IMG/VR virus record: IMGVR_UViG_3300032322_000756
Coordinates: 1 to 28,757 of that record
Strand: one strand, 5' to 3'
Length of the DNA: 28,757 nucleotides
Origin: a virus
Shown here: one piece after another, positions 1,145 to 28,757 of the stretch
Layout of the letters: each line of letters begins with the position of its first letter
Position numbering within the stretch: the stretch's first letter is position 1
The notes under the pieces: generated by a model
Databases searched by the model: none
What the model was told of the DNA's origin: nothing
What the model saw: only the letters and a program-made list of their open reading frames with translations
Translations under genes and position numbers: made by a program

Positions 1145-1147
1145 ATT

Positions 1148-4602: not shown

Positions 4603-4611
4603 AATACTCTC

Positions 4612-5670: not shown

Positions 5671-5679
5671 GAGATTGAG

Positions 5680-6573
5680 ATGAGTGATGAGTTTATGTTT
5701 GAAGATTTTAATTTAGGCGGGGGAGAGGATGTATCCGCTTATTTAGGTGGAGATTTAGCAGACATACCTACCAATATTAATTTTTCTGATCTTGATCTTA
5801 GTGAATTAGGTTCTGGTTTTGCTGGAGATATTAGTAATGTTGGGCTTACTCCTGACTCATTACAAACTCTTCTTAGTGATCCTGAGTTAATGGCTGAATT
5901 TGCCAAGATATATCCTGATGCAGCAAATATCCTCCAAGGGTTTCCTACTTCGGCTGAAATGAGCCAGCTTGAAGACCAAGCTAAAAGTGATATTGCCCCC
6001 GGTGGGGCTATGACAGGTAACCCTTTTGGTACGCAAACCGGCGGTACTCGTGAGCAAACGCTTTTAGAAAAATTAGGTATTGGTGCGGGTAGTGACGGTA
6101 AGGGAATTCTAGGTACAGGTATTTCTGGTTCTGATGCTGCCAAATACGCTGCAATGCTTGCTATGGCGAAATTAGCCTATGACGACGCCGAAAGAGCAAG
6201 AAAAGAAGCCAAAGGATGGACCGCGCCATCCACAGGTGGGTATACTGCAACACGAGGGCCAAAAGGTACGTTATTTAGGAAAGCTGCTTCGGGTGGCGTA
6301 ATGTCTTTGGGTATGGCAAAAGGTCGTTATCTTGGTGGAATGACCGACGGTATGGCGGATAAAGTCCCCGCGCATATAGACAACAAACGCCCCGCTGCGT
6401 TAAGTGATGGTGAGTTTGTAATCCCTGCCGACGTTGTTAGTCATTTGGGCAATGGCAATTCAAATGCTGGTGCCAAACGCTTGTATGAAATGATGGACGA
6501 TATTCGTGCCGCACGAACAGGTAACCCTAAGCAGGGTAAACAAATCAACCCTGACAAATTTATGCCGAGGTAA
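5680..6573 (+). CDS. Structural protein with C-terminal LSDGEFVIPADVV motif, function unknown
   Basis: The 297-residue product has an acidic N-terminal 100 residues and a small helical hydrophobic segment at 152-170. Its conserved C-terminus contains GGVMSL at 205-210, GMADKVPAHID at 224-234, LSDGEFVIPADVVSHLGNG at 241-259 and GAKRLYEMMD at 264-273. This C-terminal block recurs in virion-region proteins of many podoviruses and has no assigned activity that I know of. A good ribosome site (GGAG, 6-7 bases before ATG) follows the previous stop by under 10 bases. The next gene begins 2 bases after its stop. The GGVMSL element is shared with the following gene. A structural or ejected-protein role is inference from position. 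Confidence 0.62.
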   Translation: MSDEFMFEDFNLGGGEDVSAYLGGDLADIPTNINFSDLDLSELGSGFAGDISNVGLTPDSLQTLLSDPELMAEFAKIYPDAANILQGFPTSAEMSQLEDQAKSDIAPGGAMTGNPFGTQTGGTREQTLLEKLGIGAGSDGKGILGTGISGSDAAKYAAMLAMAKLAYDDAERARKEAKGWTAPSTGGYTATRGPKGTLFRKAASGGVMSLGMAKGRYLGGMTDGMADKVPAHIDNKRPAALSDGEFVIPADVVSHLGNGNSNAGAKRLYEMMDDIRAARTGNPKQGKQINPDKFMPR

Positions 6574-6575
6574 TC

Positions 6576-16300: not shown

Positions 16301-18175
16301 CTTTTTGTAGACGCAATGCCAGAAACAGCATTTGCTAAGTCTTTCCAAACTCGTAAAGAAACATCTGGGTTTAACAAGGACGCTGTAAAAGCTCTGCGTG
16401 AAAAAGCCTTCCCAATTGCAAGGCAAGTTGCCAATATGAAGTACGCAGCCAAGCTAGATAAGCTTGTAGCTGACATGCGGGAAAGCGTTACAAAAAAGCA
16501 AGGGACCAAAAAGGGTGATGTACAACTTGAAACAGCTTACTTAGATATTTTAGAACAACACGTTCAGTTTGCTATCAATCCCAACACCAATCGTGCGGCA
16601 CAAATACTGTCAACGATGGGCTTCAATATGACATTAGGTTTTAACGTGTCATCGGCTTTGGTAAACCTGGGGCAGGTACCGTTAATTGCTGCACCTTATT
16701 TAGCTGGTGAGTATCAAAGCGTTGGTGGACTTCCTACCGTTATGAAAGAAGTCAACAAAGCCTATAAAGTATTTATCGGAAGTGGCTTTAAGCGTGACGT
16801 TAAGACCATCGTTGGTGATGTCGAAGTCAACCGTCGGTCTATGCCTTCTTTAGACAACATCAACTATGATGCACCTGGTTTATCGGAAGATGTTAAACGT
16901 CTAAAAATACTTGCACAGAAAGCCCAAGAGCAAGGGATGCTTAATCGCTCCCAGATGTACGAAACACTTGAAGCGATGGACGATGCCAGCATCGTTACAA
17001 AAGCCAATAAGCTCTCTGGGATTATGATGCACATGGGCGAGCGCATGAACCGTCAGGTTACGATGGTCGCTGCCTACAATCTTGAGCTTGCCAAGATGAA
17101 AAAACAGGGGCGCACGATTGATGATGCAGCTATGGCAGAAGCTGCGGATCGCGCACTGTACTTGACCGAGATGACTAACGGGGGTATCGCGGCAGCGGCT
17201 GCACCACTCATCGCACAAAAGTCATCCATCGGCAGACTTGCCTTTATGTTCAAACGCTACGGCGTGTCGATGTACTACTTGTTGTTTAAGTCTGCACGTA
17301 CGGCATTGACGGACCAAGACAAAGCTACCCGCACGGCTGCATGGAAGCAGGTTGGGTATATCGCAGGTATGACAGCACTTACCGCAGGGGTGTCTGGGTT
17401 ACCGATGTTTGGTGCGATAGCCATGCTCTACAACATGTTTAAGGATGACGATGAGGAAGATTTAGAGTCCATCGTGCGTAAAGGTATTGGTGAACTTCCG
17501 TTTAAAGGTTTGCTGAACTACACAACAGGGCTTGAAGTTGCTTCGCGCATGGGGTTGAGTGATCTAATCATGCGGGACGTTATCAACGAAAACGAGAAAA
17601 CGTTACCCGTCCGGCTTCTTGAAGCTTTTGGTGGCCCCGTGTACGGCACCTTTACTAAATGGGAACGTGCAGCAGAGTTAATGAAAGAAGGGCATTATGA
17701 TCGTGCGATAGAAGCCGCACTTCCTTCTGCTTTAGGCAACGTGTTTAAGTCATACCGATATGCTAATGAAGGTGCAAACACCTTGCGGGGTGATCCCATT
17801 ACAGGTGACATCAATACGTGGAACGTAGCGGCTCAGTTCTTTGGGTTTGCTCCTGCCGAATATGTAAGACAGCTTGAGATTAACGCGTTGGTCAAAGGTA
17901 TTGATAAAGCGGTAACCGAGGAAAAAACCAAGCAGCTAAAACGTTACTACGTGGCAAGTCGCATGGGTGATACAGAAGGGCGTGAAGAAGCTAAAGAAGC
18001 GTTACAAGAGTTGCGCCAGAAATATCCCAAGCTGTTCCCAGAAGGTATTGAACAATCTATCCAACGGTCAATGGCTCAGCATATGCGTACGACCAAAGAG
18101 ATGTACCACGGTGTTACGCTTTCAAAGGCTATGCGAAATGAGCTTATTGATCTAGCTTCGGAATACGAGGACTAA
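10301..18175 (+). CDS. Giant polyvalent virion protein: YkuD L,D-transpeptidase-like, HExxH peptidase-like and LPD38-like regions
   Basis: This 2624-residue protein fills 27% of the window. Residues 1-400 are charged helices with Gly/Ala-rich membrane-like stretches. Residues 520-900 are Glu/Lys/Pro-rich, with an EPKVEA-type repeat at about 763-797 and a basic patch near 860-900. A YkuD (L,D-transpeptidase) domain spans about 1303-1436: RLHVFDADG, TPAGRYTL, His1387 in VIAVHAA, and Cys1416 in ISYGCIN. That fold normally acts on peptidoglycan stem peptides. An HEALH zinc-peptidase motif follows at 1559-1563, with DEFVAEAF (Glu1603/Glu1607) as possible third ligand. The C-terminal 520 residues (GFNMTLGFNVSSALVNL near 2107, KSSIGRLAFMFKRYGVSMYY near 2309, hydrophobic helices at 2348-2380) match what I know of large polyvalent protein-associated domain 38. 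Such proteins are thought to be carried in the virion and delivered to the host. Ribosome site AAGG precedes the ATG. Confidence 0.85.
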   Translation: MPIINIAPYGPVRFSDALSEDELRRKIEAVRAKGEQEQSQKYKFDPREELSLGQQFKGGAKRAFTGIGSLATDVLPAIGGSLLGFEDYAREQMAEAAEKRRAAELESPTAYRKLSDIRGIGDVPGFLAETLGEGAVDIASLLVPGGAGSVIGRRLAQRGAAEAGEQIAGRIARRGVPEGPIQPDVLKGLQETATRRVAESLGREGADLGFKTGLRGGAYGLASGEIFQSVEEETGKLEPTLALALGVPFAALDSLLPETIAKQLGATGKAVLTKEMLERSTLPEAKGLAARLGTAIPALVAKEGLTEAAQENISILAEQIAGSSKKFFDPENVDRMLMAGVKGGIAGGVFGAPGAAIEAARDKGADQALIDVEVARRAEITKGEEEKRAALEEAKTRFETAGLGETAPLFQEGELPLQETKIKDFLASLGQEPPKEETAEVKPITQEYLADSGIVSGPLNKAFKGKDLNDPEVVSAFREVLTQRAEDPKLSVSAQMMARARLEELPVVEQQGFDFAAARREQEEIDAAKVKAQKEEAETKQKEKREQDIALLQTLLQRSKESQKAAPEEEREAGPFNLQLTKQLENALGQLRRRQAFERAEREAVTQKEEETRKAEAQRGAQNELQQAALMGELPSNVPLAPSLEPTGQITLPGFRPQQLEPTAAEKAAPEGKATPEAKDKRQMEMFTPSGKPAKGAKSVIKTDEQRGGEGVSVPSGPTGGAPTARVEPPVAERVERVEPPVEEPVRGEEAPSGAVKETKPKTEPTTKPKAEPKVEAKTEPKVEAETEPKTEPEKETPSAAAPTETVEAKEKRTAKAPKRAKVAEPADEAELSEQEQRDIQAELEQEQAVQTEVKKVKKAKKERRQKEAESAEKGEPPPKKTRKPRAKKIVGTEEFQKLEGGAATQLYQTTQFTNFLERGYVGFAPLDLPQQIDNQIEAAKGSADNKELPRLEIQKTDIAEDTQKVKDLITGPKADTPEARAAQVYFSKMPRLVDGLINIAFGTQFEAPHLLPNIPQSDQYGTTIEQNFFNGLTQENARKAFVWVENNLSPVSFNELAARQTAFAIAAKTSDQQIVRLVQLGFRGPAAPVELDIEGKPINRQEGIQEYEAAFKREYSAVGRLGIALEQAGMPEAQREEIMRLATRKVVEVLPPFTTTWELNTLNGDDLIRVIPEKNQKLISEQVDKAGPEARTALAKHYGVAPDSPELLSRTLLDVVRFANKGIEAVDRAIRSFIKQIANGLMSVALIFNPAQLIDTFSYNPVKVYTDTIEIKAVVPTDARANMSAEAVKVYESMAPAAKESGKGFMIADKPAGRLHVFDADGNLIAQDTALYGRDYGDVLQGEKRVTPAGRYTLKVASSHYAGGKAFELVESEHRVGNTDYVIAVHAAYLGDKTEKRDERLATAAISDKRISYGCINTKHETFLNKLMPNAAKLDGGMVFVIPDEVALSDTLFKPTTQTVSAQKFIRGATVGDPLHPAIIACLKSDDLPTALKSMASMSGMVGKVAGALLRANIDTSVKVVDNLTDEAGKPVAGFFDPQTNTIFLDSKAGLNSHVALHEALHAATSHVLDNPSHPVTKQLQALYDKVKGSLDTAYGATSLDEFVAEAFSNPEFQAKLQSMFPDGKPISAWARFTRTVANMLRSLMGRSTISTESAFDQVDRLTNQILSPAPDQRNAGVLYAVSANPKWFNSTVDGVLKAANAAGVKQENISVIDEFLRNRATGAMRKFLMQFLPLHAVADLAKKYLPQAAEINRTVNLRTGEEDKTYQEIEPVVTRVEKWAKGAGKAKLDAFNDLVYGSTLAKIDVAPRYDENLKKQITPTEADYAGAEAKTEFRRLKALYDSLGADGQKAYRDARDTYRKLYKYILDSLTNRIDDVIADKAQAKRVKESILEKLAKKGGIDPYFPLTREGKYWLSYRTKDASGQEDFVVEAFKEERTRKLRIEELEKANKILKDKKGELDLNTFSQLSEMNYRRVPSTSFIYSILNNVPEGSKDDILKLFVDAMPETAFAKSFQTRKETSGFNKDAVKALREKAFPIARQVANMKYAAKLDKLVADMRESVTKKQGTKKGDVQLETAYLDILEQHVQFAINPNTNRAAQILSTMGFNMTLGFNVSSALVNLGQVPLIAAPYLAGEYQSVGGLPTVMKEVNKAYKVFIGSGFKRDVKTIVGDVEVNRRSMPSLDNINYDAPGLSEDVKRLKILAQKAQEQGMLNRSQMYETLEAMDDASIVTKANKLSGIMMHMGERMNRQVTMVAAYNLELAKMKKQGRTIDDAAMAEAADRALYLTEMTNGGIAAAAAPLIAQKSSIGRLAFMFKRYGVSMYYLLFKSARTALTDQDKATRTAAWKQVGYIAGMTALTAGVSGLPMFGAIAMLYNMFKDDDEEDLESIVRKGIGELPFKGLLNYTTGLEVASRMGLSDLIMRDVINENEKTLPVRLLEAFGGPVYGTFTKWERAAELMKEGHYDRAIEAALPSALGNVFKSYRYANEGANTLRGDPITGDINTWNVAAQFFGFAPAEYVRQLEINALVKGIDKAVTEEKTKQLKRYYVASRMGDTEGREEAKEALQELRQKYPKLFPEGIEQSIQRSMAQHMRTTKEMYHGVTLSKAMRNELIDLASEYED
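12587..12690 (+). repeat. Degenerate (T/A)EPK(V/T)EA repeat in the giant gene
   Basis: About four imperfect units of roughly 21-24 bases encode alternating TEP, KVEA and ETEPK elements at residues 763-797 of the giant protein. This is a low-complexity acidic/basic linker between the N-terminal helical part and the enzymatic regions. It also explains long spurious open frames on the opposite strand here. Confidence 0.75.
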
Positions 18176-18199
18176 AAAAGACCCCGCCAAAGGGCGGGG
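18174..18199 (-). terminator. Intrinsic terminator for the leftward replication operon
   Basis: Read on the - strand, a 7-bp GC stem (CCCCGCC/GGCGGGG, 18182-18188 with 18193-18199) with a 4-base loop is followed by TCTTTTTT (18181-18174). This is a textbook rho-independent terminator at the end of the - strand genes. On the + strand the same stem has only an upstream A-tract and no U-run, so rightward termination would be weaker. The U-run overlaps the stop codon of the giant gene. Confidence 0.88.
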
Positions 18200-18257
18200 C
18201 TAAATGGTCGTCGTGACCAGAGGAGAGTAGATGGACACATCTACGGGCCGAACAGTA
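18200..18257. other. Convergent intergenic spacer with two further hairpins
   Basis: Beyond the terminator stem lie a 5-bp hairpin (TGGTC/GACCA, 18205-18219) and a perfect 7-bp hairpin (GTAGATG-GACA-CATCTAC, 18227-18244). The second one covers an ATG preceded by AGGAG. No protein-coding gene is convincing here. The hairpins may shield or terminate transcripts meeting from both sides. Confidence 0.6.
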
Positions 18258-18485
18258 TCACACTATTCTCCAAATGCGAAGTCCTAGCTTTCCTGCCTCA
18301 ATTCTCCCCTTAAATTCCACCCGCCAACCTTTCTCTCTCGCAACCCGCTTTACTTGTATTTTTAGCTTGTGCAGGTTGATGGCAGGGACAAACACCGACA
18401 TGCCTACTTCCCATTTGTCGTAAGGGATTTTAATTTCTACCCCATCAGGGTTAATCGGCGGCAGTGGCTTGTGCGGGGTCCACAT
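18258..18485 (-). CDS. Small conserved phage protein, function unknown
   Basis: This 75-residue basic protein is last in the leftward operon and overlaps the 3' end of the primase-helicase gene by 35 bases. It has a central IPYDKWEVGMSVFVPAINL segment (20-38), a short basic helix (41-54) and a C-terminal RIEAGKLGLRIWRI strand (61-74). An IP-x-VGxSFFVP opening with a (G)xR(V/I)WR ending recurs in small phage proteins beside replication genes; I know no assigned activity. The ATG has only a weak upstream purine run, so translation probably depends on coupling to the upstream gene. The terminator at 18174-18199 lies about 60 bases downstream. Confidence 0.68.
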   Translation of the reverse strand: MWTPHKPLPPINPDGVEIKIPYDKWEVGMSVFVPAINLHKLKIQVKRVAREKGWRVEFKGRIEAGKLGLRIWRIV

Positions 18486-21300
18486 CCGTTAATCCGTCCA
18501 TGTTGTAAAGCACAATAGCGTTGGTCGGTGGGATGTTCATACGGGTGCCTTTTGCCATACGCTTACTCTTGATTTCTGCTCTAGCTTTGCTTTTCACCAA
18601 AGACTTAATAAATGGTTCGTACACAATCGAGTGCTTACCACACCACTCCCGAAACGAATCAACCGCAATGTATAAAGTTTTTAGGTCGTATTCGTAACGC
18701 AGCTTTAGCGCCATGCGCGGTGTACTATCTGGCATGACAATCTGCTCAAGCAGTTCGTTCTTATCTTTTCTTGCGTCCTCGGTGCTACGAATAGATAACG
18801 TGTTTGAAAAGTTCTCTGCCCAATACCGACCAACAACTTCAAGCGGATCAACTCTAGCTTCGGCAATTGCAGTGGTTGCTTCTTTAAGTATCCCGACAAG
18901 CCACTTAAAAACACTAGGTACGTCCCAATCAATCAAACCAATCTTCTTAGCAATGATGAGACCTGTAATCGCAGAAGCACACCCCGCTGAGTAGAATCGG
19001 TCCTCAAAAGAAAGCTCTGCTTCTTTGTCTAGCTTCAACCTGACTTGATTCCATAGTTCCTCGGTTGCTTCTAAATTACGCATGATCCACTGTAAGTAGG
19101 GAATGTGTGCATGGCCGTAATTCGACAAAATATTTTTTGCCAACTCATCCGTATCTTCTTTGGCAAGCTTTACCCCACGCACGGCTTCAATCTCAAGCAA
19201 CCTTCGCATCTCTGCATTGGGCAGTTGTTTCTCCATCCTTACCTTGTCTGACAGCTTGACGTTACCTGTCGATACAGCAATCGTGCTCCAAGGCATACCA
19301 CGCCAACGTTCTTTGTTACTGCTGCCTTCCATGCGTGATCGCTGCAAACCATTCGGGATCGCATACATATAATTACTAGATTCTTCAGACCCGATGTTTG
19401 TCATCTCATCAAACCACATGCAGATGTTTTTAAATACCTCGGTTCGTGCAAAGCGTGTTGCATGGGAGTCGTCCCGCTTCATCATCAAAAGACTTGGGTC
19501 GCCCCAGATTGACGCCCCTGCAAGCATGGCTGTCGTTTTCCCATAACCAGATAACGCACTCCAGATATGAACACCGAGTCCACGAACTGCCGAGAAATCC
19601 ATGAAGGGTGCACCGAATCCACAACCTATAACAAACTTGTGTAGCTCCGTATTAGGTTTGTCGCTAAAGAACTTCATGTTTTCTTTCCAAGCATCTAGCG
19701 TACCCACCTGAGTAAAGTAATGTATGTACTCTAAGGTCTTGCTTGATGGTGGGCTGTGCTCAATCCCTGCGGGGAAAAACTCTTTGTTCCCTACAACAAA
19801 ACTTTGTCTGACTTCATCTTTCTTAACCCATCCAAACTGTAAATGTGTCACTCCTGATTTCTCCTGAAATTGCAGGTAGTTAACCCACGCAACGACATAA
19901 CTTTTAAGCTCGTCAATTTTGTGGACGACGATACCTTGTTCTGCTAATGATTTACGTAGTTCTTCTGAAGATGTTGCAGCTTTGTTAGACAGCGTAAACT
20001 CCCGCACACCATCTTTGGGCATGTGTAAACGAAACACCAAACATTCGCCTAACGTTGCATCCATCAAGCGTTTTACGATATAAAAGTCATTGTGGTAAAC
20101 CGGCTTTTCTGTTTCAACTTGTGAACCGTCTACTGCTTTTCTTGAATCTTTCTTGAACACCCCACCATTACGTCCACGGAAATAAGGTGGTGGGTATTTG
20201 GGTATGACGTACTGCTGTTCATACCCCTCAGTTAGTCCGGTCGGTCTATCAATAACAATGCTTTCTTCCTCTTCTGAGGATTCAGCAATCGTGCGCCCTA
20301 ATGAAATGGGTGAGCGGATAACGCCTCGATGGACGCAGCCTTCGCACTTACCGGGGTTGTATCTTTCAAAGGTGTCGCATAAGTATGGGCCTTTGATTTG
20401 TGCGGCTTTCTCCTCGGTTTCTTCTGGGGTGTACTCTGGATGTTTTCTTGATACAGCATGTATAGCTTTTTCAGATTCTTCAGTAAACGCAGCAATAGAT
20501 AAAGCAGCTCGCCACTTTGGTTCTGTCATCGTAGCTTGGTTTTGTATAAGGTCTGCTAGTTGGTTGCATCCAACCCCCTCGTTAGTTTTTTGTAGGATTA
20601 TCTTGAAGCTGCTTGTGTAACTGCCAAGGATTGCTTGCGATACAGGGTCGGCTTCCCGCCGCACATACATTTGCTTTTCTCTTATTTCTTCACCAATAGC
20701 GGTTTGATAAAAAGAAAAAGGCTTTGGGGTGCACTTGTCACTGATGAGTACAACAGGGCGTGGCTCGCTTTTGAAATGCAGTGTTCCCGGTATGCGAAGA
20801 ACCGAAGCCGCGTTACAAGTTATAGATTCGTCAACTTGGAAATTGTTTTCACGTAATAAGGTGTCTAACTTCCATGCAACTTTCTGCCAATCTGCCTTGG
20901 ATACTTCTTCGGTGAAAGGCCAGTAAACATGTATGCCACGACCACTGCTTGTCATAAGCGGGCGCGGTAAGTTATATTTTTTACAGAAGGAAATTAAGGC
21001 GCGTAGCCCATCTTCACGAGTGAGGTAGGGCTTTCCTTCCCCACAATCAATATCAAGAAAAAGCGATCTAAGATAAAACGCATCATTGGCCTTGCGTGTG
21101 CCCTTTACTGCGAATGTGGCTAGTGCGAAGTACGCATCCCAACCATCTTCTTTAGCTTCGTCGCCTCGTGCAATAAGTCCTAAAAGTGTGTCGTGATAAG
21201 TTTGTTTATATGGTCCTTGCTTCTTCAACCCCTTCGATGTATATGCAACATAAATCCCCTGTGTAGGCAATACTGTCTGTAAAAATTGTAGTGTGTCCAT
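18451..21300 (-). CDS. AEP-type primase fused to a DUF927-like helicase
   Basis: This 949-residue bifunctional replication protein has an N-terminal archaeo-eukaryotic primase domain. FLDIDCGEG supplies the DxD metal pair (Asp83, Asp85), SSGRGIHVYW the SxH-type nucleotide motif (Ser119/His124), and VDES with VLRIPGT the third motif (Asp157). A Cys cluster at 308-322 (CDTFERYNPGKCEGC) looks like a zinc site. The C-terminal half is an NTPase: Walker A SGYGKTT (584-590), Walker B ICMWFDEM (Asp631/Glu632) and sensor-like AVSTGN (675-680), as in DUF927-type phage helicases. It would prime and unwind DNA for the family A polymerase encoded in the same module. Ribosome site GGAGG lies 8 bases before the ATG. 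The 98-base leader is structured and may regulate expression. Confidence 0.88.
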   Translation of the reverse strand: MDTLQFLQTVLPTQGIYVAYTSKGLKKQGPYKQTYHDTLLGLIARGDEAKEDGWDAYFALATFAVKGTRKANDAFYLRSLFLDIDCGEGKPYLTREDGLRALISFCKKYNLPRPLMTSSGRGIHVYWPFTEEVSKADWQKVAWKLDTLLRENNFQVDESITCNAASVLRIPGTLHFKSEPRPVVLISDKCTPKPFSFYQTAIGEEIREKQMYVRREADPVSQAILGSYTSSFKIILQKTNEGVGCNQLADLIQNQATMTEPKWRAALSIAAFTEESEKAIHAVSRKHPEYTPEETEEKAAQIKGPYLCDTFERYNPGKCEGCVHRGVIRSPISLGRTIAESSEEEESIVIDRPTGLTEGYEQQYVIPKYPPPYFRGRNGGVFKKDSRKAVDGSQVETEKPVYHNDFYIVKRLMDATLGECLVFRLHMPKDGVREFTLSNKAATSSEELRKSLAEQGIVVHKIDELKSYVVAWVNYLQFQEKSGVTHLQFGWVKKDEVRQSFVVGNKEFFPAGIEHSPPSSKTLEYIHYFTQVGTLDAWKENMKFFSDKPNTELHKFVIGCGFGAPFMDFSAVRGLGVHIWSALSGYGKTTAMLAGASIWGDPSLLMMKRDDSHATRFARTEVFKNICMWFDEMTNIGSEESSNYMYAIPNGLQRSRMEGSSNKERWRGMPWSTIAVSTGNVKLSDKVRMEKQLPNAEMRRLLEIEAVRGVKLAKEDTDELAKNILSNYGHAHIPYLQWIMRNLEATEELWNQVRLKLDKEAELSFEDRFYSAGCASAITGLIIAKKIGLIDWDVPSVFKWLVGILKEATTAIAEARVDPLEVVGRYWAENFSNTLSIRSTEDARKDKNELLEQIVMPDSTPRMALKLRYEYDLKTLYIAVDSFREWCGKHSIVYEPFIKSLVKSKARAEIKSKRMAKGTRMNIPPTNAIVLYNMDGLTDVDPAQATAAD

Positions 21301-21311
21301 AGCCGCTTCCT

Positions 21312-21382
21312 CCGCAGAAAAAATAGGGCGACGGGGGTTCCCTGCGGCGCGAAACCCTTTCGATCCGTCAATCTAGTCGCCC
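21312..21382 (-). promoter_or_regulatory. Structured leader upstream of primase-helicase: candidate attenuator
   Basis: Read on the - strand, GGGCGAC (21382-21376) pairs with GTCGCCC (21332-21326). The stem encloses a GGGTT/AACCC helix and is followed by TATTTTTT (21325-21318), a terminator-like layout with a long loop. A competing 6-bp pairing, CCGCAG (21347-21342) with CTGCGG (21317-21312), would span the U-run and end directly against the GGAGG ribosome site. The two foldings exclude each other only in part, by topology. A terminator/antiterminator or translational switch is inference. Confidence 0.5.
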
Positions 21383-21398
21383 GTAGCTTGTTGCCTAC

Positions 21399-22211
21399 TT
21401 AGTCGTCAAATTCGTCGAGTAGGTCTGCTAGTTTAGTCTCTGGCTCGGCTTTTTTCGAGACTACGGTAGGCTCCACTGCTGGAGTGGGTAATGCCTTCAC
21501 AGTGTCTGTTTGGGACACAGTAAGCGTAACTGCCGATAAAGCTTCGGGGCTATCCTTAGCTTTCTGCACCATTTCAAACTCTTGCTCTGAGATGGGGCGC
21601 ACAGGCTTGAAAGTAAGTTTTGGTGTGGAACTATTGGTATCAAAGCGCATCTCAGTAACCACCCCCGTGATAGGCGCACGATGCGCTGCGAGGTGTTTGG
21701 CATAGGCTTGCAAAGGTAGCTTGCCGTTTTCTCCGTCACCAAAAATACTGGTAGCAGGAAGTGCCAACTGATATACAAACCCATTAGGCTCGTTCTCAGG
21801 AATCACTGCCAAGCGGCGTTGGAAACGACATGCACGGCTATCCCCTTGTCCAGAACCCTTAGCGTTCTGGGGGCAGTCCATACACTTGCTTGCCTGACGA
21901 TTCTTGGCTTTTACATCGGGCGTAATACCGTCATTAGACCAACAATCGGGCGACGAAACCTGCCCCTTTACGTAAGTTCCTGAGTAGAAAATACGGCTGT
22001 TGTTCTGCGCGGCTTTGACGATGATGACGTTCATGGCGCGGTCTTCGTTAACTGCGATTTCCTTACCACCAACTAACATGCGAAACACGCCGCCCTCGAT
22101 AGAGATACGCTTGGCACCACCGCTACCACCTGCCAAAGCTTCGGTTGTTTCGTCTTGCATACCCTTGAGGTACGCGGGGAGTCCACCTTTAAACAACGCT
22201 AATTCAGACAT
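21399..22211 (-). CDS. Putative single-strand-DNA-binding protein with zinc ribbon and acidic tail
   Basis: The 270-residue product has an N-terminal flexible start, a beta-rich core (residues 35-80) and a Cys4 set (Cys90, Cys110, Cys113, Cys128) likely to bind zinc. A second beta/helix part spans 130-215. A Pro/Glu linker then ends in the acidic tail LADLLDEFDD (261-270). A core plus acidic C-terminus is the layout of phage SSBs such as T7 gp2.5, and zinc within the core recalls T4 gp32. The position between an HTH gene and the primase-helicase fits a replisome single-strand binder. I found no direct OB-fold signature by eye, so the call is inference from layout. A strong ribosome site (AAGGAG) precedes the ATG. 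Confidence 0.6.
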   Translation of the reverse strand: MSELALFKGGLPAYLKGMQDETTEALAGGSGGAKRISIEGGVFRMLVGGKEIAVNEDRAMNVIIVKAAQNNSRIFYSGTYVKGQVSSPDCWSNDGITPDVKAKNRQASKCMDCPQNAKGSGQGDSRACRFQRRLAVIPENEPNGFVYQLALPATSIFGDGENGKLPLQAYAKHLAAHRAPITGVVTEMRFDTNSSTPKLTFKPVRPISEQEFEMVQKAKDSPEALSAVTLTVSQTDTVKALPTPAVEPTVVSKKAEPETKLADLLDEFDD

Positions 22212-22221
22212 TTATTTCTCC

Positions 22222-22473
22222 TTACAGGTCTTTGTCTGGGTTAAGGTCAAGTTCTAACTGCCGGGGGTCTTTCTGTTGCTCTTGCTTTTCTTTGTTCTCG
22301 CTGTACGTCTTTAATGCTGCATCTACTGCGGACAACTTAAACCGATAAACGTTTGCAATTTTTAGCGTAGGGATGATGTCGTTCCGCATCCAAGCCCGAA
22401 CGGTTGATATTGAAACTGAGTAATGTTTTGCAACATCCTCAATCGTTACGTACCTCTCTTCGACAACTTCCAT
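22222..22473 (-). CDS. Excisionase/MerR-like helix-turn-helix protein
   Basis: This 83-residue protein opens with a winged HTH of the excisionase/HTH_17 type: YVTIEDVAKHYSVSISTVRAWMRNDIIP (residues 8-35), followed by the wing (KIANVYRFKLSAVD). Such proteins bind and bend DNA, as excisionases or small regulators. The C-terminal tail is a charged helix ending QLELDL at 72-77. I chose the ATG at 22473 because it follows AGGAG by 6 bases and overlaps the upstream stop (TGATG); the TTG one codon earlier is worse placed. It is the second gene of the sub-operon behind the 22.9-kb promoter and is a candidate autoregulator of the palindrome there. No integrase gene is seen in the window. Confidence 0.78.
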   Translation of the reverse strand: MEVVEERYVTIEDVAKHYSVSISTVRAWMRNDIIPTLKIANVYRFKLSAVDAALKTYSENKEKQEQQKDPRQLELDLNPDKDL

Positions 22474-22886
22474 CAATTTCTCCTGTTACGTTGAACGGTT
22501 ACGGAATATTCGCTGTCCACATTCAACCCCGGTGGCAGCAAGTCGGGGTTACCTTCTAAAAATTCTTTAAGGTTTGTTTGATGAACCCGCTTCTCCAGCA
22601 CATGCGGGATTTCATGCTCCAAGATGAAGCCGTAAAACGCTTCCCAGTTATCAGTCCAGTACCGCTTACTGGTAGTGCGGTAAACCAGACCCTCAGAGGT
22701 GCGTAAGCTTTCTACGTTAGCCGACTTCATTTGGTCGAGTAGTGCGTTTTTTACAAGGCGCATTTTTTCACTGAGCTTCTCGTACTCGGTGTCGTATGTC
22801 CTTGTTAGCTCTTCTCGTTTTTCCCGCATCTTGATGTAAATGCGGACTAATTTATCGATGGAAACACCATCCTCAGATTCGGTCAT
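22473..22886 (-). CDS. Conserved coiled-coil phage protein, function unknown
   Basis: The 137-residue protein has a long charged helix (about 10-55, RIYIKMREKREELTRTYDTEY) and a small domain with EGLVYRTTSKRYWTDNWEAFYGFI, then LEKRVHQTNLKEFLE and a final LPPGLNVDSEYSVTVQRN. This combination (coiled coil, TxxGxxYRTT, W-D-AF, PPG-(I/L)NV) is common in phage replication regions and carries no function I know. I use the ATG at 22886, 6 bases after GGAG. A TTG 57 bases upstream would also keep the frame open, but it is the -35 box of a strong promoter. The transcript probably starts between them. It is the first gene of the sub-operon and couples to the HTH gene (TGATG). Confidence 0.72.
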   Translation of the reverse strand: MTESEDGVSIDKLVRIYIKMREKREELTRTYDTEYEKLSEKMRLVKNALLDQMKSANVESLRTSEGLVYRTTSKRYWTDNWEAFYGFILEHEIPHVLEKRVHQTNLKEFLEGNPDLLPPGLNVDSEYSVTVQRNRRN

Positions 22887-22907
22887 CATACTCTCCGTTG
22901 GTTGTTG

Positions 22908-22926
22908 TGCCACTAATATAGTGGCA
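22908..22926. promoter_or_regulatory. Operator candidate: perfect 19-bp palindrome over the -10 box
   Basis: TGCCACTAATATAGTGGCA has two 8-base arms that are exact reverse complements around a 3-base centre. It covers the -10 hexamer and expected start site of the leftward promoter at 22915-22943, the place where a dimeric repressor would block polymerase. The binding protein is unknown; the neighbouring HTH protein or the winged-helix protein near 28.1 kb are candidates. Confidence 0.75.
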
Positions 22927-22943
22927 TCAGATGTTTTTGTCAA
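22915..22943 (-). promoter_or_regulatory. Sigma70-type promoter for the SSB/primase sub-operon
   Basis: On the - strand a perfect TTGACA (22943-22938), a 17-base spacer and TATATT (22920-22915; one mismatch from TATAAT) form a near-consensus promoter. The expected start is near 22908, about 22 bases ahead of the ATG at 22886 and just upstream of its ribosome site. The -35 box lies in the last codons of the SNF2 helicase gene and the helicase stop lies in the spacer. This promoter can uncouple the SSB, HTH and primase-helicase genes from the upstream polymerase operon. Confidence 0.85.
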
Positions 22944-24486
22944 GCACTTCTTTGTACAACGCTACAAGCTGTGTGTGAGCGTTAATTTTACTATCAAGAA
23001 GTTGGTATATATGCCTTTCCGCATTACTACCTACCAATCTTACTACAGTAACCTTGTTGACCTGTCCCGCCCTGTGTGCACGAGCGTTAGCCTGTGCGTA
23101 GATCTCCATCGAAGGGGTTGGCCCCCACCAGATGATTGTGTCAGCGGCAGTGAGTGTAACCCCGTGTGCAGCAGCTTGAGGCTGCACGATCAACATCTTT
23201 ATGTTGTTGGTGGTCTGGAAGTCATTAAAAATTCTGGTGCGGTTGGCTACCGATACATCCCCGTCAATAACTTCAACGGGTACACCATCTTGGGTGAGAC
23301 GTTCGCGCAGTACTTCAATCGTATGTTTGAACGGCACAAAAAGAATGACTTTGTTGTTGGTTTCTTCAACAACCTCGCACAGCACCGTGTATCTGTTTTT
23401 TATATCAAATACAACTGTTTCACCAGAGTCGGTGTAGGCTGCACCGCATGAGATTTGTAGCAGTTTGTTTAGGCCAACAGCCGCGTTAACTGCGGTAATT
23501 TCTTCCCCCGCTGCGTTAACAATCATCTGCTTTCTAAGCGTTTCGTAATATTTATTTTGCTGCGGGGTAAGCGCAACTGTTCTTGTGGTGTACACAATAT
23601 CAGGCAGGTCTAAGCACTCCTTCTTTGTGAACCTGATGGCAGGTTGCATGACTCGGTACACCGTGTCGGTTGCGTTGTCTTTTGGCTCCCACCTGTATCG
23701 TGATAATTGATACATCACCATGTCTTTGTAAGCAGCAAAGATTTTTGGTACACCTGCGGGGTTAACTAATTTACCTAGCGCATAAGCATCGAGTGGTGAC
23801 TGTGCCGCAGGGGTTCCTGTCAACATCCATAACCACGTTTCAGGTTTTAGTAGTTTGTATAACGTTCTCCATCTTTTAGTGCTGATGTTCTTATAAGCGT
23901 TAGCTTCGTCAATAACGATGAGGTCAAACTTGGCGTTAGCAATTTCAGCTTCTACTATGTTCACCCCATCATAGTTAATGATTACAAATTCTGCATCGCT
24001 TTCAATGATCTCCTTGCGCTTTTCTGCCGAGCCATAGGCGATGTCAACACTGCGGTGCATAGCAAACTTAAACAAATCCGCTCGCCACGCCGAGTCCATG
24101 ATTGATAGTGGGCAGATGACAAGAACACGTTTAATTTTGCCTACGCGCATCAAGTAATCCGCAGCCCAAATAACTGATCCGGTCTTGCCCGTGCCTTGCT
24201 CGTTTAAACAAAACGCACGTTTGTGCACCGTCAAGAAAGATGCCGTGGTCTTTTGGTGATCGAAGGGTTTGTGCATCCCACGCCAATCGTAGTCCCGCAG
24301 GATGGGCGAAGGTACGTTCTTGATCTTCAGGTTGCCTAGCACTTGTACTTCATCAAGCCCCCACTTCACTAGAACTTGGGTTGAGCTATCTTGCTTGCCA
24401 ACGATGCGGCTAGCAGGTATGTGTGCTGTGACAACCTGTGGGTTTTTTAAGCGTAATAGTAACGCCTTGTTTTCAATGATTTCCAT
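22927..24486 (-). CDS. SNF2-family DNA helicase/translocase (SF2)
   Basis: The 519-residue protein carries the full helicase set: motif I NEQGTGKT (95-102), motif II VIDEANAYKN (191-200), motif III LTGTPAA (222-228), motif V region QPQAAAHGVTLTAADTIIWW, and motif VI QANARAHRAGQ (465-475). The pattern of motif VI and the spacing to motif V are those of the SNF2 group, short phage form without extra domains. Motif II reads DEAN where most members have DEAH or DEGH. It would move on or remodel double-stranded DNA in replication or recombination. It follows the nuclease and HNH-like genes, with GGAG 5 bases before the ATG. Its 3' end hosts a promoter for the downstream genes. Confidence 0.9.
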   Translation of the reverse strand: MEIIENKALLLRLKNPQVVTAHIPASRIVGKQDSSTQVLVKWGLDEVQVLGNLKIKNVPSPILRDYDWRGMHKPFDHQKTTASFLTVHKRAFCLNEQGTGKTGSVIWAADYLMRVGKIKRVLVICPLSIMDSAWRADLFKFAMHRSVDIAYGSAEKRKEIIESDAEFVIINYDGVNIVEAEIANAKFDLIVIDEANAYKNISTKRWRTLYKLLKPETWLWMLTGTPAAQSPLDAYALGKLVNPAGVPKIFAAYKDMVMYQLSRYRWEPKDNATDTVYRVMQPAIRFTKKECLDLPDIVYTTRTVALTPQQNKYYETLRKQMIVNAAGEEITAVNAAVGLNKLLQISCGAAYTDSGETVVFDIKNRYTVLCEVVEETNNKVILFVPFKHTIEVLRERLTQDGVPVEVIDGDVSVANRTRIFNDFQTTNNIKMLIVQPQAAAHGVTLTAADTIIWWGPTPSMEIYAQANARAHRAGQVNKVTVVRLVGSNAERHIYQLLDSKINAHTQLVALYKEVLDKNI

Positions 24487-24498
24487 CTACTCTCCATA

Positions 24499-24804
24499 TT
24501 ATTTTTCACGCTTACTTGTTTCAGATACAAGGGCGCTTTTCCCGTTTCTACGAAATGATCTATTCTTTGACTTGTCCTGAATAAAATAACCGTCTTTGTT
24601 TGAACCTCCATTACTGAGTGCCTTGCGGTGGGCTACGTCTTTGCCCTCGCGTCTATCGGCTTTACCGTCGTTGTCTTTGTCTACACCCGTCTTATCAATA
24701 GCACGGCGAGCACGTTGGCGTTCAAGCTTTGCAGGGATGTCTCCCCTAGCAAGCTGTTGTTGGTATTCTTTTTTATAGGGGCGGGGTTTGTTGACGTAAG
24801 GCAT
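24499..24804 (-). CDS. Small HNH-like protein with EF-hand-like loop
   Basis: This 101-residue basic protein begins MPYVNKPRPY, and its ATG shares a base with the stop of the nuclease gene (TAATG) behind a GGAAG site. An open extension upstream exists but overlaps the nuclease gene fully. A helix (residues 10-38) leads to DKDNDGKADRRE (42-53), which fits the 12-residue EF-hand calcium-loop pattern. Then comes DVAHRKALSNGGSN (56-69) and SKNRSFRRN (79-87), which resemble the His and Asn parts of an HNH core (His59, Asn65/69, Asn81). Whether it cuts DNA is uncertain, as the usual Cys metal pairs are absent. The site between a Cas4-like nuclease and a SNF2 helicase suggests a DNA-processing role. 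Confidence 0.6.
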   Translation of the reverse strand: MPYVNKPRPYKKEYQQQLARGDIPAKLERQRARRAIDKTGVDKDNDGKADRREGKDVAHRKALSNGGSNKDGYFIQDKSKNRSFRRNGKSALVSETSKREK

Positions 24805-25508
24805 TATTGATTCTTCCCATTGTGTATACAACTCAACACAGGGCAATGCTTGCGGCATAAGCCGCTTGTCTTTGGGTTCCAAACCCCAGTGCTATAGGCT
24901 TCTAACAACCTATCGTAATGCCCCGTCCATTTTTGCCATGCACCTTCTTGCATCTCGTGGTCGTACTTATCCTTCACGAAAGCATTACACACCACAAAAA
25001 GTAATCCTGCCTTGACTTGCGTGATCTCAGGAAAGTGTTTGAAGATAGCTAGGGCCATAAGCTCTAGCTGATCCTTGTCTGCGTATTGGGCAGACTTTCC
25101 TGTCTTGTAATCAACAATAAAAGCTTTGTTGCGTTCTCGGTCAAGAATTGCCAAGTCCACAATCCCACGCCACCAAACATTTTTACTACCAAAGGTGCAA
25201 GGCTTAAAGTCTCTGGTAAGACCCATGCGGTATTCGCACAGCTTCTCCCCTTCCATGCTATTGAGTTTGTCCAAAGCTTCTTTAGCAAAGTTGAAATACT
25301 CAGGCAGGGGGGTGCCTTCCTTGATGTAATCTTCTGCGGCTTTGTGAAACCTCCCCCCGTAAAGGGTAGCCTCGGTAGGGGGTTCGGTAACGTCTTTGAT
25401 TACCCTAAGATGGAAATACTTTTTAGGGCATTGCTCAAATAGCTTTATGCTGCTGTAGCTCCAAACTGGGGCTATGGGTGCTTTGGGTTGCAATTTTGTC
25501 TCGAACAT
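24804..25508 (-). CDS. Cas4/RecB-like PD-(D/E)XK nuclease, likely with Fe-S cluster
   Basis: The 234-residue protein follows the PDDEXK_1 order: WSYSSIKLFEQCPKKYF (residues 16-32, including Cys27), GRFHKAAEDYI with His55 (52-62), WWRGIVDLAI with Asp118, AFIVDYKTGK with catalytic Asp133 and Lys135, and QLELMAL with Gln147. The C-terminal Cys218, Cys222 and Cys227 (GLCRKHCPVLSC), together with Cys27, form the four-cysteine layout used by AddB and Cas4 proteins to bind a 4Fe-4S cluster. It is likely a single-strand-directed exonuclease used in recombination or replication. An ATG 36 bases farther upstream is open, but MFETKLQPKAP fits better just ahead of the conserved start. Neither start has a clear ribosome site. 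The 5' end overlaps the small upstream gene. Confidence 0.85.
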   Translation of the reverse strand: MFETKLQPKAPIAPVWSYSSIKLFEQCPKKYFHLRVIKDVTEPPTEATLYGGRFHKAAEDYIKEGTPLPEYFNFAKEALDKLNSMEGEKLCEYRMGLTRDFKPCTFGSKNVWWRGIVDLAILDRERNKAFIVDYKTGKSAQYADKDQLELMALAIFKHFPEITQVKAGLLFVVCNAFVKDKYDHEMQEGAWQKWTGHYDRLLEAYSTGVWNPKTSGLCRKHCPVLSCIHNGKNQ

Positions 25509-25653
25509 GTCTGAGTGCCGTAAGGGTAGTAAGGATACAACCATACGCTTTTATTGGGTCATTTTCAAGCAAGTTTCGTTTCATCTCTTTTAGTGCACTC
25601 TCAGCTTTTATTAGCTCTACAACGTAGTCGTCGTGTTCAGCAATCACCATAAC
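25435..25653 (-). CDS. Small helical protein, function unknown
   Basis: This 72-residue reading frame starts 17 bases inside the 3' end of the DNA polymerase gene, behind GGGGAAAG. It ends inside the nuclease gene, overlapping it by about 74 bases. The first 50 residues look like two amphipathic helices (DDYVVELIKAESALKEMKRNL, then IKAYGCILTTLTALRHVRD); the tail is Gln/Ser-rich. It bridges an otherwise empty gap of about 130 bases between polymerase and nuclease, the main reason to accept it. No family recognised. A longer frame to 25767 runs antiparallel to nothing but lies inside the polymerase gene in another phase, so I reject that extension. Confidence 0.5.
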   Translation of the reverse strand, partial: VMVIAEHDDYVVELIKAESALKEMKRNLLENDPIKAYGCILTTLTALRHVRDKIATQSTHSPSLELQQHKAI

Positions 25654-27457
25654 TTTCCCCAATTCCCGATTCACAATTAATAGGTAAACCTTGCGCCCAA
25701 TAAGGCACCCAACGCATACATTCTTCCACATAATCCCGCGCTCGATACTGCTCCGTGGCGGGGGCAATACAAGCTATGGCGTCGTGGACGGTTAACACCA
25801 CACGGTATTCTTTTGCTATGCGCGTCATCTGCTCGCCAATGATGCACCTTGCTATGGCTTGGCAGACGTTCTCTATAACTTTCCCACCATAAATCTTGAT
25901 TTGCCCTTTGCGGGTTTTGTAAGAGAACTCGCTGCCATCTTCTGCCGACAGCCCGTCGTAACGCATCATTAACTTACTGGGTAGTTTAATCGCTTTGTGC
26001 TTGCCTATAACTTCTAGCACCCCCGGCTTACCAAGCGTTCCGTTGACGTTATCTGCCATCAAGTGAAGTGCGAACTGTGCTTCACGCCAAAGCCCAACAA
26101 TGTGTGGATTTGTTTTACGGTAAATATCAATGATCCGACGGCACTCATCAAGTTCTGTTTCAACCCCCATCGTCTTTAACTGCGCTTGAAACTTCGCTGC
26201 ACCCATGCCGTAACCAGCACCGAGAATTGTGGTCTTACCAACAAACCGCTGATCTTTCGTAACCTGATCTTCAGCTACGCCGTAGATCGCACTTGCCATC
26301 TTCTTATAAACATCTTCCTTGTTTGCGAAAGCCTGCACCAAGTCATCCTGCTGCGCCAACCATGCAAGCACCCGTGCCTCAATCTGCGAAGAGTCTGAGT
26401 CGATAATGACGTAACCCTTGGGTGGCAGGATGGCTTTCTTGAGTTTCCCTGCGTTGTCCCCCCGACTAGGCAAGTTTTGCAGGTTAAGGTTGTCCGACCC
26501 ACCCCATCTACCGGTGTGCGCTGCGTAGTATTTAAGGGGTACAGGCATATTGCCACGTTCAGCAATACCGATAAATCGCTCGGTGCGTGTTTCTTCTAAC
26601 GTTGACTTCGTACCAATCCGTGCAGCGACCAGAGCTTGCACCCGCTCATCAGGATGCTCAAGTAATGCTTTGAACTCCTCGTCATTCTTAGCTAACGCCA
26701 ATGTTTCTTTACCTGTGGTGGGGCTGATCTTTTTAGGCGGTTCCACACCAACTGAGCGCAACAAGTCCGCAAACTTCGGATTGCTCATCAAGTCATCTCG
26801 GTTTGCTGCGGCTTCGGATAACAGCTTTTCTTTACGCTCTTGAACCTCTTTCAAATGCTGCTCCAACAAATCCTTATCCAGGCGGAGCACAGGTTCAGTG
26901 AACATACGTAAAGTTAAATCGATGAGTTTGATTTCGTGCGGCGGAAAGTTCTTACCCATCATCAACCTATCAAAAAGTTTGTAGGTCAAGTCAACGTCGT
27001 TGATGCAGTAATCCCCGTAAGCCTCCAAACCTTCTTCAGTGAACTCGGTGCGGTGCATCCCTAATGCGTTAATAACTTCCGTGCCTTTGATACCGAGGTT
27101 ATAGCGTTCAGCTAAGGCTTTCAACGACCCGCCCACTTCCACACCATGCAAAGCCCTCGCCATAGACAGAGTGTCAAGCCATAACTTAGGGCGTATATCA
27201 AAAACCCAGTTAAGAATGGCACCATCAAACATAGCGTTATGAGCAAGGCCAGCACTATTCTCCCAATCGAATTGGTCGAGCCAGCCCTTAATCTGTTCAT
27301 GTGTCCCACTTGCCCACTCCGTTTGGTTGTCATCTACTTTCACCGCAACACCGATCACCTCAAAGAATGGGCTGCGTATGTACTCCTCAGTCGTCAATTT
27401 ACTCAGGGAGTATTCTCGGTTGTAGTACGTTTCAAAATCAATAGTTATTATTTTCAT
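25637..27457 (-). CDS. Family A DNA polymerase with 3'-5' proofreading exonuclease
   Basis: The 606-residue replicative polymerase carries exonuclease motifs DFET (Asp7, Glu9), HNAMFD (Asn74, Asp78) and YCIND (Tyr150, Asp154). The polymerase half has TGRWGGSDNLNLQNLP (315-330), motif A IIDSDSSQIEARV with Asp355, motif B RFVGKTTILGAGYG with Arg404, Lys408 and Tyr416, and motif C VHDA with His558 and Asp559. It lacks the 5'-3' exonuclease of bacterial Pol I, like T7-type enzymes. The residue aligned with E. coli Phe762 is Leu412, and motif C has Ala560 where Pol I has Glu. The C-terminal ESYGDC ending is typical of this phage group. GAGG precedes the ATG by 5 bases; the start lies 20 bases inside the upstream gene. 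Confidence 0.95.
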   Translation of the reverse strand: MKIITIDFETYYNREYSLSKLTTEEYIRSPFFEVIGVAVKVDDNQTEWASGTHEQIKGWLDQFDWENSAGLAHNAMFDGAILNWVFDIRPKLWLDTLSMARALHGVEVGGSLKALAERYNLGIKGTEVINALGMHRTEFTEEGLEAYGDYCINDVDLTYKLFDRLMMGKNFPPHEIKLIDLTLRMFTEPVLRLDKDLLEQHLKEVQERKEKLLSEAAANRDDLMSNPKFADLLRSVGVEPPKKISPTTGKETLALAKNDEEFKALLEHPDERVQALVAARIGTKSTLEETRTERFIGIAERGNMPVPLKYYAAHTGRWGGSDNLNLQNLPSRGDNAGKLKKAILPPKGYVIIDSDSSQIEARVLAWLAQQDDLVQAFANKEDVYKKMASAIYGVAEDQVTKDQRFVGKTTILGAGYGMGAAKFQAQLKTMGVETELDECRRIIDIYRKTNPHIVGLWREAQFALHLMADNVNGTLGKPGVLEVIGKHKAIKLPSKLMMRYDGLSAEDGSEFSYKTRKGQIKIYGGKVIENVCQAIARCIIGEQMTRIAKEYRVVLTVHDAIACIAPATEQYRARDYVEECMRWVPYWAQGLPINCESGIGESYGDC

Positions 27458-27776
27458 GTGCGCCTCTGTAAATTAACGATCTCCACTTGGTTACGACCAT
27501 CCCGTGCACTGATCTACTAGTTGCACGAACCCAACTGTCTGCAACTACGATGTTGTCCCTTTTTGCTTGGAGAGCTATTGCCCCCCAAGCCCTGTCGTCA
27601 GGGGGGAAGGGCATGTCTGTGTTTGCTTTACGTACTTCTTCGGTAGTAAACAACTGATGGTTTATTGCGTGTTCTCTAAAAGCTGCGTATGCCGCAGCTC
27701 TCCATTCTTCCCCTGCATTGCTAGCGGCAATTTCAGCCATTGTATGTCCAAGAGCAAGTCCTTCGTGTTTGTCCAT
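27438..27776 (-). CDS. Putative small DNA-binding (winged-helix-like) protein
   Basis: The 112-residue protein has an N-terminal helix pair (EEWRAAAYAAFREHA, residues 23-37), then FTTEEVRKA (43-51), PPDDRAWGAIALQAKRDNIVV (58-78), and HGMVVTKWRS (91-100). A (F)TTE(D)VR helix followed by DxRAWGxVxxxAxRxGII is a pattern I have seen in phage replication regions; it suggests a winged helix that binds DNA, but no assigned function is known to me. AGGAG lies 8 bases before the ATG. Its stop is 20 bases inside the DNA polymerase gene, so the two are probably co-translated, and a replication accessory role is a fair inference. Confidence 0.65.
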   Translation of the reverse strand: MDKHEGLALGHTMAEIAASNAGEEWRAAAYAAFREHAINHQLFTTEEVRKANTDMPFPPDDRAWGAIALQAKRDNIVVADSWVRATSRSVHGMVVTKWRSLIYRGAHENNNY

Positions 27777-27786
27777 TTCATTTCTC

Positions 27787-27996
27787 CTAAAAAGGTGCTT
27801 CTTCTACATCACTCAAATCAGGTTTTTTAGCTACACGCACCAACACAACATCCCTGCGGTTGATAAATGCGTAGTGTGGGAAAGGCCAGTTATTGTCTGA
27901 GGGTATGCGTATGCACAACATACCATCCTCATCTTCCTTAACAACGTAGCCTATCTCCCCTGTGCTCCTGATACGTACTCGTGTGTCAGGTTGCAT
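27787..27996 (-). CDS. Small beta-barrel-like protein, function unknown
   Basis: This 69-residue frame reads as short beta strands: TRVRIRSTGEIGYVVK (5-20), GMLCIRI (25-31), and DVVLVRVAKKP (49-59), with an acidic end (LSDVEEAPF). The turn GEIGYVV resembles KOW/SH3-like barrels of small phage proteins, though this is only a visual likeness. It starts behind GGGGGT and overlaps the winged-helix gene by 11 bases; the next gene begins 10 bases after its stop. It is probably real because it keeps the operon closed, but no role can be assigned. Confidence 0.55.
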   Translation of the reverse strand: MQPDTRVRIRSTGEIGYVVKEDEDGMLCIRIPSDNNWPFPHYAFINRRDVVLVRVAKKPDLSDVEEAPF

Positions 27997-28330
27997 GTGG
28001 ACCCCCTATATTGAATGGGTTGTGGAATTGAAGCTTGTAAGGTTTAGCCTTCTTCACTTTATCTTTCTTTTCGATAGTGTAGTAGCCGTAAGCCCATCCT
28101 GATTTCTTACAGATAGAAGATTGACGCAGCATCAGCTCTCTTTCGATGATTCCTTGTTCAAGGAGCGGCATCAGTGAGTTGGATACGGCCTTGGTTGTAA
28201 CACCCAGCTTGCTCGCTAAGTCCTTGAGCGTCACAGGCGATGATCTTGTCTGCATATATTGAAGGCAGGCTTGCCCTCTGTCCTGTTTAGCTTTCATCCT
28301 GAGTTTGTGGATGCTCATCGTTGCACTCAT
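27986..28330 (-). CDS. Winged-helix/HTH transcriptional regulator-like protein
   Basis: The 114-residue protein has a predicted HTH with PVTLKDLASKLGVTTKAVSNSLMPLLEQGIIERE at about 32-65, where helix two and the recognition helix (TTKAVSNSLMPLL) and wing lead are clear. A short Cys/Trp segment (CKKSGWAYGYY) and a basic tail follow. The SVxRxLxxLLxxGxIxR-type spacing is that of MarR/DprA-like winged helices used as small phage regulators. The start ATG lies behind GGAGG and overlaps the preceding stop (ATGA). It is a candidate regulator of the leftward promoter near 22.9 kb, without direct evidence. A start at codon 5 is also possible. Confidence 0.65.
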   Translation of the reverse strand: MSATMSIHKLRMKAKQDRGQACLQYMQTRSSPVTLKDLASKLGVTTKAVSNSLMPLLEQGIIERELMLRQSSICKKSGWAYGYYTIEKKDKVKKAKPYKLQFHNPFNIGGPHAT

Positions 28331-28548
28331 TCATCCCTCCATGTGCCGTCCTTAAATATAAAACGTGTAAACAGTAACCTCCCATATGTGTCGTAGTGTG
28401 CTGCCATGCAGGGTGGATCGTTGTATGCCGGAGCGCGAGAGGGTAACCCCATGCCACTCGCCGTTTGATGCGGGAAGTAATACATCGTTGTTACAGCTTC
28501 TTTTGGTACGTCCGGTGGTGTAGTGAAATCATACAGTTCGCGTTTCAT
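28327..28548 (-). CDS. Hypothetical small protein
   Basis: This 73-residue frame shows no known motif. It is rich in Pro and Tyr (FTTPPDVPKEA, MYYFPHQTASG, RAPAYNDPP) and ends with a beta-like YGRLLFTRFIFKDGTWRDE. It begins 3 bases inside the upstream partial gene (ATGA) behind AAGGGG and shares ATGA with the next gene. The packing into the operon and the good ribosome site support it as a real gene. Function is unknown. Confidence 0.55.
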   Translation of the reverse strand: MKRELYDFTTPPDVPKEAVTTMYYFPHQTASGMGLPSRAPAYNDPPCMAAHYDTYGRLLFTRFIFKDGTWRDE

Positions 28549-28757
28549 TGCTCACCCCTTGCTCTGATGGCATCGGAAAAATTCAGCAGCACTGTTGCAG
28601 TCCAGCTTTGCAAGCGATGGTCAGCATCCATTGGGCTGAGGTCTACGTTCAAGAGCAAATTCGCACACGCCTCACGCTCATGTGCTGCAACAAGTGCGGC
28701 GAAGCGTTCAAATAATTCGAGGTTTGCGCCCGTGTATGAGACTGGGTTAAAACCAGC
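28545..28757 (-). CDS. Partial small phage protein, 5' end outside window
   Basis: The - strand frame is open from the right edge to a TGA at 28547-28545 and gives at least 70 residues. A helix-rich segment contains LELFERFAALVAAHEREACANLL and the end reads SDAIRARGEQ. The (H)ERExACA and AIRARG ending is a pattern of small phage proteins near replication genes that have no assigned function. The stop overlaps the ATG of the next gene (ATGA), as at other junctions here. Because the beginning is missing, length and start are unknown. Confidence 0.6.
   Translation of the reverse strand, partial: AGFNPVSYTGANLELFERFAALVAAHEREACANLLLNVDLSPMDADHRLQSWTATVLLNFSDAIRARGEQ

Follow-up and report, generated by a model that had tools for sequence, protein, structure and literature searches.

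A probable internal sigma70-type promoter in the replication operon of an environmental phage group and a lineage-specific palindrome upon it

Introduction

Does the end of a helicase gene in a long leftward phage operon carry a promoter of its own, and is the perfect palindrome lying over it the operator of a switch? The locus belongs to the virus record IMGVR_UViG_3300032322_000756, of which positions 1 to 28,757 (28,757 nt, the whole stretch of DNA analyzed) are called the window here. An original prediction made from the letters of the window proposed both a near-consensus promoter and a repressible switch at this place. The best explanation of the comparative analysis described below is an internal promoter of the host-sigma70 type within the replication operon of a tailed phage, which we consider very probable.

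Promoter Elements and Gene Context

The -35 hexamer TTGACA (22938-22943, - strand) agrees with the consensus at 6/6 positions and falls within the last codons (Leu-Asp-Lys) of an SNF2-type helicase gene (22927-24486, - strand; Pfam SNF2-rel_dom and Helicase_C). It is separated by 17 bp from the -10 hexamer TATATT (22915-22920, - strand), which agrees at 5/6 positions and reads TATAAT in most relatives. The spacing predicts transcription to start at an A at 22908 (- strand), 7 nt past the -10. The hexamers and 17-base spacer are present as originally described, with spacing inside the 16-18 bp range of sigma70-type promoters, and TTGACA-17-TATATT (22943-22915, - strand) is the sole 11/12 sigma70-like match in 18000-28757. 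The promoter had been placed as a whole in the helicase 3' end, which is correct for the -35; the -10 and the palindrome both lie in the intergenic gap past the helicase stop codon (22929-22927, - strand).

Nine promoter-like matches were found in 18000-28757 against 13.9 expected from shuffles, which is no enrichment, so the reality of the promoter has to be judged from comparative evidence. This count is in favor of the view that the site is not a promoter and that its hexamers are coincidental in AT-rich DNA; against that view, the hexamers, their spacing, and the synonymous codon choice are conserved in relatives, as described below, and we regard it as very unlikely.

The first gene past the promoter (22473-22889, - strand) has a weak match, below the Pfam cut-off, to DUF7307 (Pam3 gp33-like). 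Its Shine-Dalgarno (SD) sequence GGAGAG (22896-22891, - strand) precedes an ATG at 22889 or 22886; the TTG start at 22943 given by the ORF finder was rejected because of this proper SD and because relatives start equivalently. The second gene of the unit encodes an HTH_17 protein (22222-22473, - strand), a candidate regulator in the original prediction. It is followed by an SSB-like gene (21399-22211, - strand), named as in that prediction and without a Pfam match, and by the last large gene, a primase-helicase gene (DUF927; 18451-21300, - strand). An intrinsic-terminator-like hairpin with a T run (18181-18200, - strand) closes the unit, and a weak anti-hemB match was seen beside it (18174-18231, - strand). 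Host RNA polymerase would start near 22908 on the - strand and re-initiate transcription for the DUF7307-like, HTH_17, SSB-like, and primase-helicase genes, and the transcribed unit would end at the terminator-like hairpin (18200-18181). Such a start would presumably serve to give the replication genes behind it additional expression, or expression at a later stage.

A longer contig of the window's species carries a strong candidate early promoter approximately 17 kb before the junction site, and strong candidate early promoters also lie far upstream in the 65-67 kb records of relatives. In three of the five relatives with records of that size, the junction site ranks with the few best promoter matches. 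Many of the candidate early promoters have a TGTGG element before the -10, which the junction promoter does not have. The GTGG of this element, which is like the complement of the junction CCAC, was considered as a shared operator and rejected, as it is better read as TRTGN, a known extended -10 element. In one relative (L105; record G001, 67,240 bases), the promoter is present twice in the same orientation, near both ends (3491-3519 and 66495-66523), and other repeats of this record are likewise spaced by 63,004 bases, which points to terminal redundancy or to an overlap in the assembly.

Conservation of the Promoter Among Relatives

Relatives were found by searches with the helicase and the next gene, yielding 107 distinct helicase/next-gene junctions. 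Each set of relatives was thinned to at most 85% DNA identity, and their shared ancestry causes the counts given here to overstate independence. In 59 of the 107 junctions, the -10 lies 15 bases past the helicase stop and is in register with a -35 resembling TTGA(A/C)T, which itself overlaps the stop codon. The helicase of the window's lineage is three codons longer, so that the same promoter register lies 6 bases past its stop. The elements thereby keep their position across related genomes.

Codon choice was analyzed in 56 non-redundant relatives chosen without reference to the junction. The final Leu codon of the helicase, which supplies the -35, was CTT in 44 of 48 cases, against 6.5 expected from the codon use of each helicase, and the largest count in 20,000 simulations was 17. 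Another codon of the tail (-8) was also biased toward CTT (35/52), indicating that terminal codon bias is not unique to the -35; the evidence is thus strong without being perfect. TATAAT matches of 5 or 6 of 6 positions occurred at a spacing of 17 in 26/48 relatives, compared with at most three at each of the other spacings between 10 and 29.

The same pattern was seen by column in 44 non-redundant junctions with helicase identity of at least 63%: the -10 columns -12, -11, -9, and -7 (T, A, A, and T) held 0.98-1.47 bits, whereas spacer columns mostly held less than 0.6, and position -14 was A in 38 of the 44. Among nine more distant relatives, TTGACTAG was invariant and TA was present at -12/-11 in all nine. 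Some relatives with very short gaps, such as L042, L044, L045, and L047, have lost the -10, and the promoter is therefore not essential in all members.

Comparison of the junction and helicase with named phages by blastn gave short, weak matches only. Named phages are related by protein, at approximately 40% identity or less, and two that were inspected have a different downstream gene arrangement; with this divergence and arrangement they are of no use as a test of the promoter. No relative was found by a genome collection search, and a literature search on this promoter found nothing.

Taken over the sequences compared, it is well supported that the junction carries an ordinary internal sigma70 promoter maintained in evolution, and they show that selection has kept its elements in relatives. 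The proposal that it could drive the DUF7307-like, HTH, SSB-like, and primase-helicase genes apart from the polymerase genes upstream is likewise supported by the conserved hexamers and 17-bp spacing. The phage group is large, environmental, and unannotated, and the site would give its replication genes an internal start that can be put to the test.

Sequence and Distribution of the Palindrome

The perfect 8+3+8 palindrome TGCCACTATATTAGTGGCA (22908-22926) consists of TGCCACTA-TAT-TAGTGGCA and spans about -18 to +1, with a lineage-specific right arm. Its position over the -10 and the predicted start point, as first claimed, was confirmed; it is exact, and the window has no other copy. The window contains two perfect inverted repeats with arms of at least 8 and loops of at most 8, compared with about 4.1 expected by chance. 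The palindrome in itself is thus nothing out of the ordinary, and neither it nor the promoter-like match indicates a function when taken alone, in contrast to their comparison across relatives.

Its position was evaluated at 53 junctions by shuffling all bases except the fixed -35 and -10. A palindrome with arms of at least 8 overlapping the -10 appeared in approximately 0.3% of shuffled sequences, so that about 0.15 cases would be expected in the 53 junctions, and one was seen. Palindromes with arms of at least 5 over the -10 numbered 10, against about 7.5 expected. GTGGC-AAAAC-GCCAC, present in L064, L066, and L091, was considered as a shifted form of the same operator and dropped on the indirect evidence of this last count.

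These numbers bear on the reading that the symmetry arose by chance, in which the left arm (GCCACTATA) is conserved as part of the promoter and drift in one lineage made the right arm its complement. The low number of such repeats in the window, the 0.15 cases expected among the junctions, and the many relatives in which the left arm has no partner (GCCACTATAAT) are in line with it. The value of approximately 0.3% for this particular promoter speaks against it, as do the invariance of the right arm in the species and its retention at 7/8 positions in a sister lineage. We consider chance symmetry quite possible, though somewhat short of probable.

The constraint within the window's species was determined from seven sequences that carry the exact palindrome and share 90-95% DNA identity with the window over about 2.5-3 kb. 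Of the helicase third codon positions, 116/328 vary (35%), compared with 0/40 gap positions. The longest invariant run of the alignment (96 bp; 22882-22977, - strand) is centered on the promoter, and the second longest (77 bp) is inside the primase gene. This invariance means that the entire junction is constrained, and within it the alignment does not separate promoter from palindrome.

Beyond the species, the two parts come apart. Among viral contigs, the exact 19-mer was found in six contigs only, all of the window's species and all at the helicase junction. The sister lineage L004-L006 (75-76% DNA identity) has TGCCATTATATTAGCGGCA at this place, an imperfect palindrome with an intact -10, in which two pairs are altered, one to a G-U type and one broken, and 7/8 of the right arm is kept. 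The right arm is absent from all other relatives, and the left arm persists in many of them as GCCACTATAAT, that is, as promoter sequence. No second copy of the palindrome was found in the longer contig of the species, where the nearest other site has three mismatches, and a half-site search in the window gave no excess. The expectation that related genomes would have the palindrome at the same place therefore fails between species, the perfect form being confined to the window's species. The original prediction counted a palindrome that is not conserved amid freely varying flanking codons against itself; between species the palindrome is indeed lost, but within the species it is kept while 35% of the helicase third codon positions vary. 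Judging from these contigs, a single lineage added the palindrome to the promoter. The comparison thus distinguishes a maintained part, the promoter, from a striking part bound to one lineage, the palindrome.

Possible Functions of the Palindrome and Candidate Regulators

A repressible switch would work through a dimeric repressor, encoded by the phage or the host, that shuts the promoter by occupying the palindrome at the -10 and start. A dyad-symmetric site does lie over the promoter, its perfect symmetry falling exactly over -18 to +1; it is invariant in seven sequences that differ by 5-10% in DNA, and L004-L006 keep most of the right arm in spite of their low overall identity. However, nearly all relatives with the promoter lack the palindrome, so the switch layout is not supported beyond one species. 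Each genome fragment has a single copy without a second one close by, the symmetry is broken at two pairs in L004-L006, and across the family, palindromes over the -10 are not enriched relative to shuffles.

The candidate regulators point in the same direction. With or without the palindrome, nearly all relatives encode the HTH_17 protein, and its recognition helix (S-x-STVR-x-W) is similar among them. For the winged-helix protein encoded near 28.1 kb, identity is 69% in L002 and falls to 51% in L086, where the recognition helix is different; the palindrome is unchanged in both. Neither of the regulators first proposed tracks the palindrome, and no co-varying cognate regulator was found among these two window-encoded proteins. 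A specific partnership of either protein with the palindrome is consequently not supported by the sequences, although the conserved HTH_17 protein may bind an imperfect site. Altogether, we view the repressible switch as possible but doubtful.

The palindrome may instead act in RNA, as an 8-bp hairpin that read-through mRNA would form past the helicase stop and ahead of the next SD, with a role in processing or stability. It folds at -11.6 kcal/mol (z -5.2), and another subgroup has a different 8-bp stem with compensatory changes just past the same promoter. The two positions are not homologous, though, one pair is broken in L004-L006, and transcripts begun at 22908 would exclude the hairpin. 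There is also no T run on the - strand and hence no terminator there. Such an RNA element seems quite unlikely. The subgroup stem itself, found in L008, L009, L010, L014, L016, L017, L023, L027, and L033, would form the predicted 5' end of the transcript; four of its pairs show compensatory changes, and a T run often comes next.

If the palindrome is functional, it would most likely serve as the operator of a repressor, covering the -10 and the start. A broader scheme is that an old internal promoter keeps its core and each lineage adds its own control element: the window's species would have its palindromic operator, the other subgroup its covarying hairpin at the 5' terminus, and the rest none. 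We think this scheme unlikely, but lineage-fitted control elements of this kind would mean that the regulation of replication genes turns over much faster than the promoter.

Other Elements in the Same Phages

The early region of the window's species, seen in L176 (positions 1-16000 of contig IMGVR_UViG_3300047551_001190), contains the perfect palindrome TCCTACCGTAGGA in 12 copies within approximately 8 kb (70-7905). It is the core of TTTCCTACCGTAGGAAA, and several copies lie 6-16 bases before an SD. Other records have multi-copy palindromes of their own, GTTAGGGAGTCCCTAAC (six copies) with the variant TTAGGGATTCCCTAA (three copies) in G002 and GTTATACCGTATAAC (nine copies) in G004. These early-region repeats resemble an operator or leader element that is repeated and specific to each lineage.

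The gap between the SSB-like and primase-helicase genes of the window holds a structured leader (21309-21383, - strand) with a full-length match to the Rfam int-alpA RNA (30.0 bits; cut-off, 35.8), which is strongly conserved within the window's species. The same gap in L007, L049, L095, and L153 has int-alpA matches above the cut-off. A literature search on the function of int-alpA RNA found nothing. Among relatives (e.g., L016, L018, L045, L054, and L129), this gap is occupied by interchangeable elements: an int-alpA-like RNA, a plain hairpin with a T run, or an insert of 32-97 bases bracketed by GGGGGGAAAG...GAGTACCCCC. The Rfam scan of the loci gave no match to the bracketed insert; some inserts contain GTCGGCTCGGCGACTTTAAA, reminiscent of the pistol ribozyme, without a match to it. 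A sub-threshold match to the Rfam Betaproteobacteria toxic small RNA was also seen in L087 (6455-6523; 30.2 bits; cut-off, 50). The lineage-specific multi-copy palindromes and structured RNAs may be the more important regulatory elements of this phage group.

Comparison with Known Systems

Several known elements were compared with the palindrome. An intrinsic terminator was rejected, since the stem is followed by CAACAACC on the - strand and by CAGATGTTTT on the + strand, where a weak terminator scan hit has its T run set off from the stem. The NrdR box is a 16-bp dyad that occurs as two boxes about three turns apart. It was rejected because CACTA-TAT-TAGTG is one base shorter between the half-sites and, by eye, no second box lies 31 bp to either side. 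The early-region palindromes of the same species (TTTCCTACCGTAGGAAA) are likewise perfect, short, intergenic, and located before an SD, but they differ in sequence and occur in many copies in the early region only, with no copy in the window.

Operators that overlap the -10 and start are known from phage promoters controlled by repressors. The layout here is the same, with a perfect dyad of suitable size over -18 to +1; the difference is that the dyad is present in a single copy, in one lineage, and without a co-varying cognate regulator. Compared with the candidate early promoters of the same phages, the junction promoter has no TG-type extended -10. In all features open to comparison, it agrees with what defines a sigma70 promoter. 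With sigma70 promoters of phage operons (TTGACA-N17-TATAAT), it shares hexamers at 6/6 and 5/6 positions, the optimal 17-bp spacer, and a purine at the predicted start approximately 7 nt downstream; it is distinguished from them by a -35 embedded in the final codons of the upstream gene.
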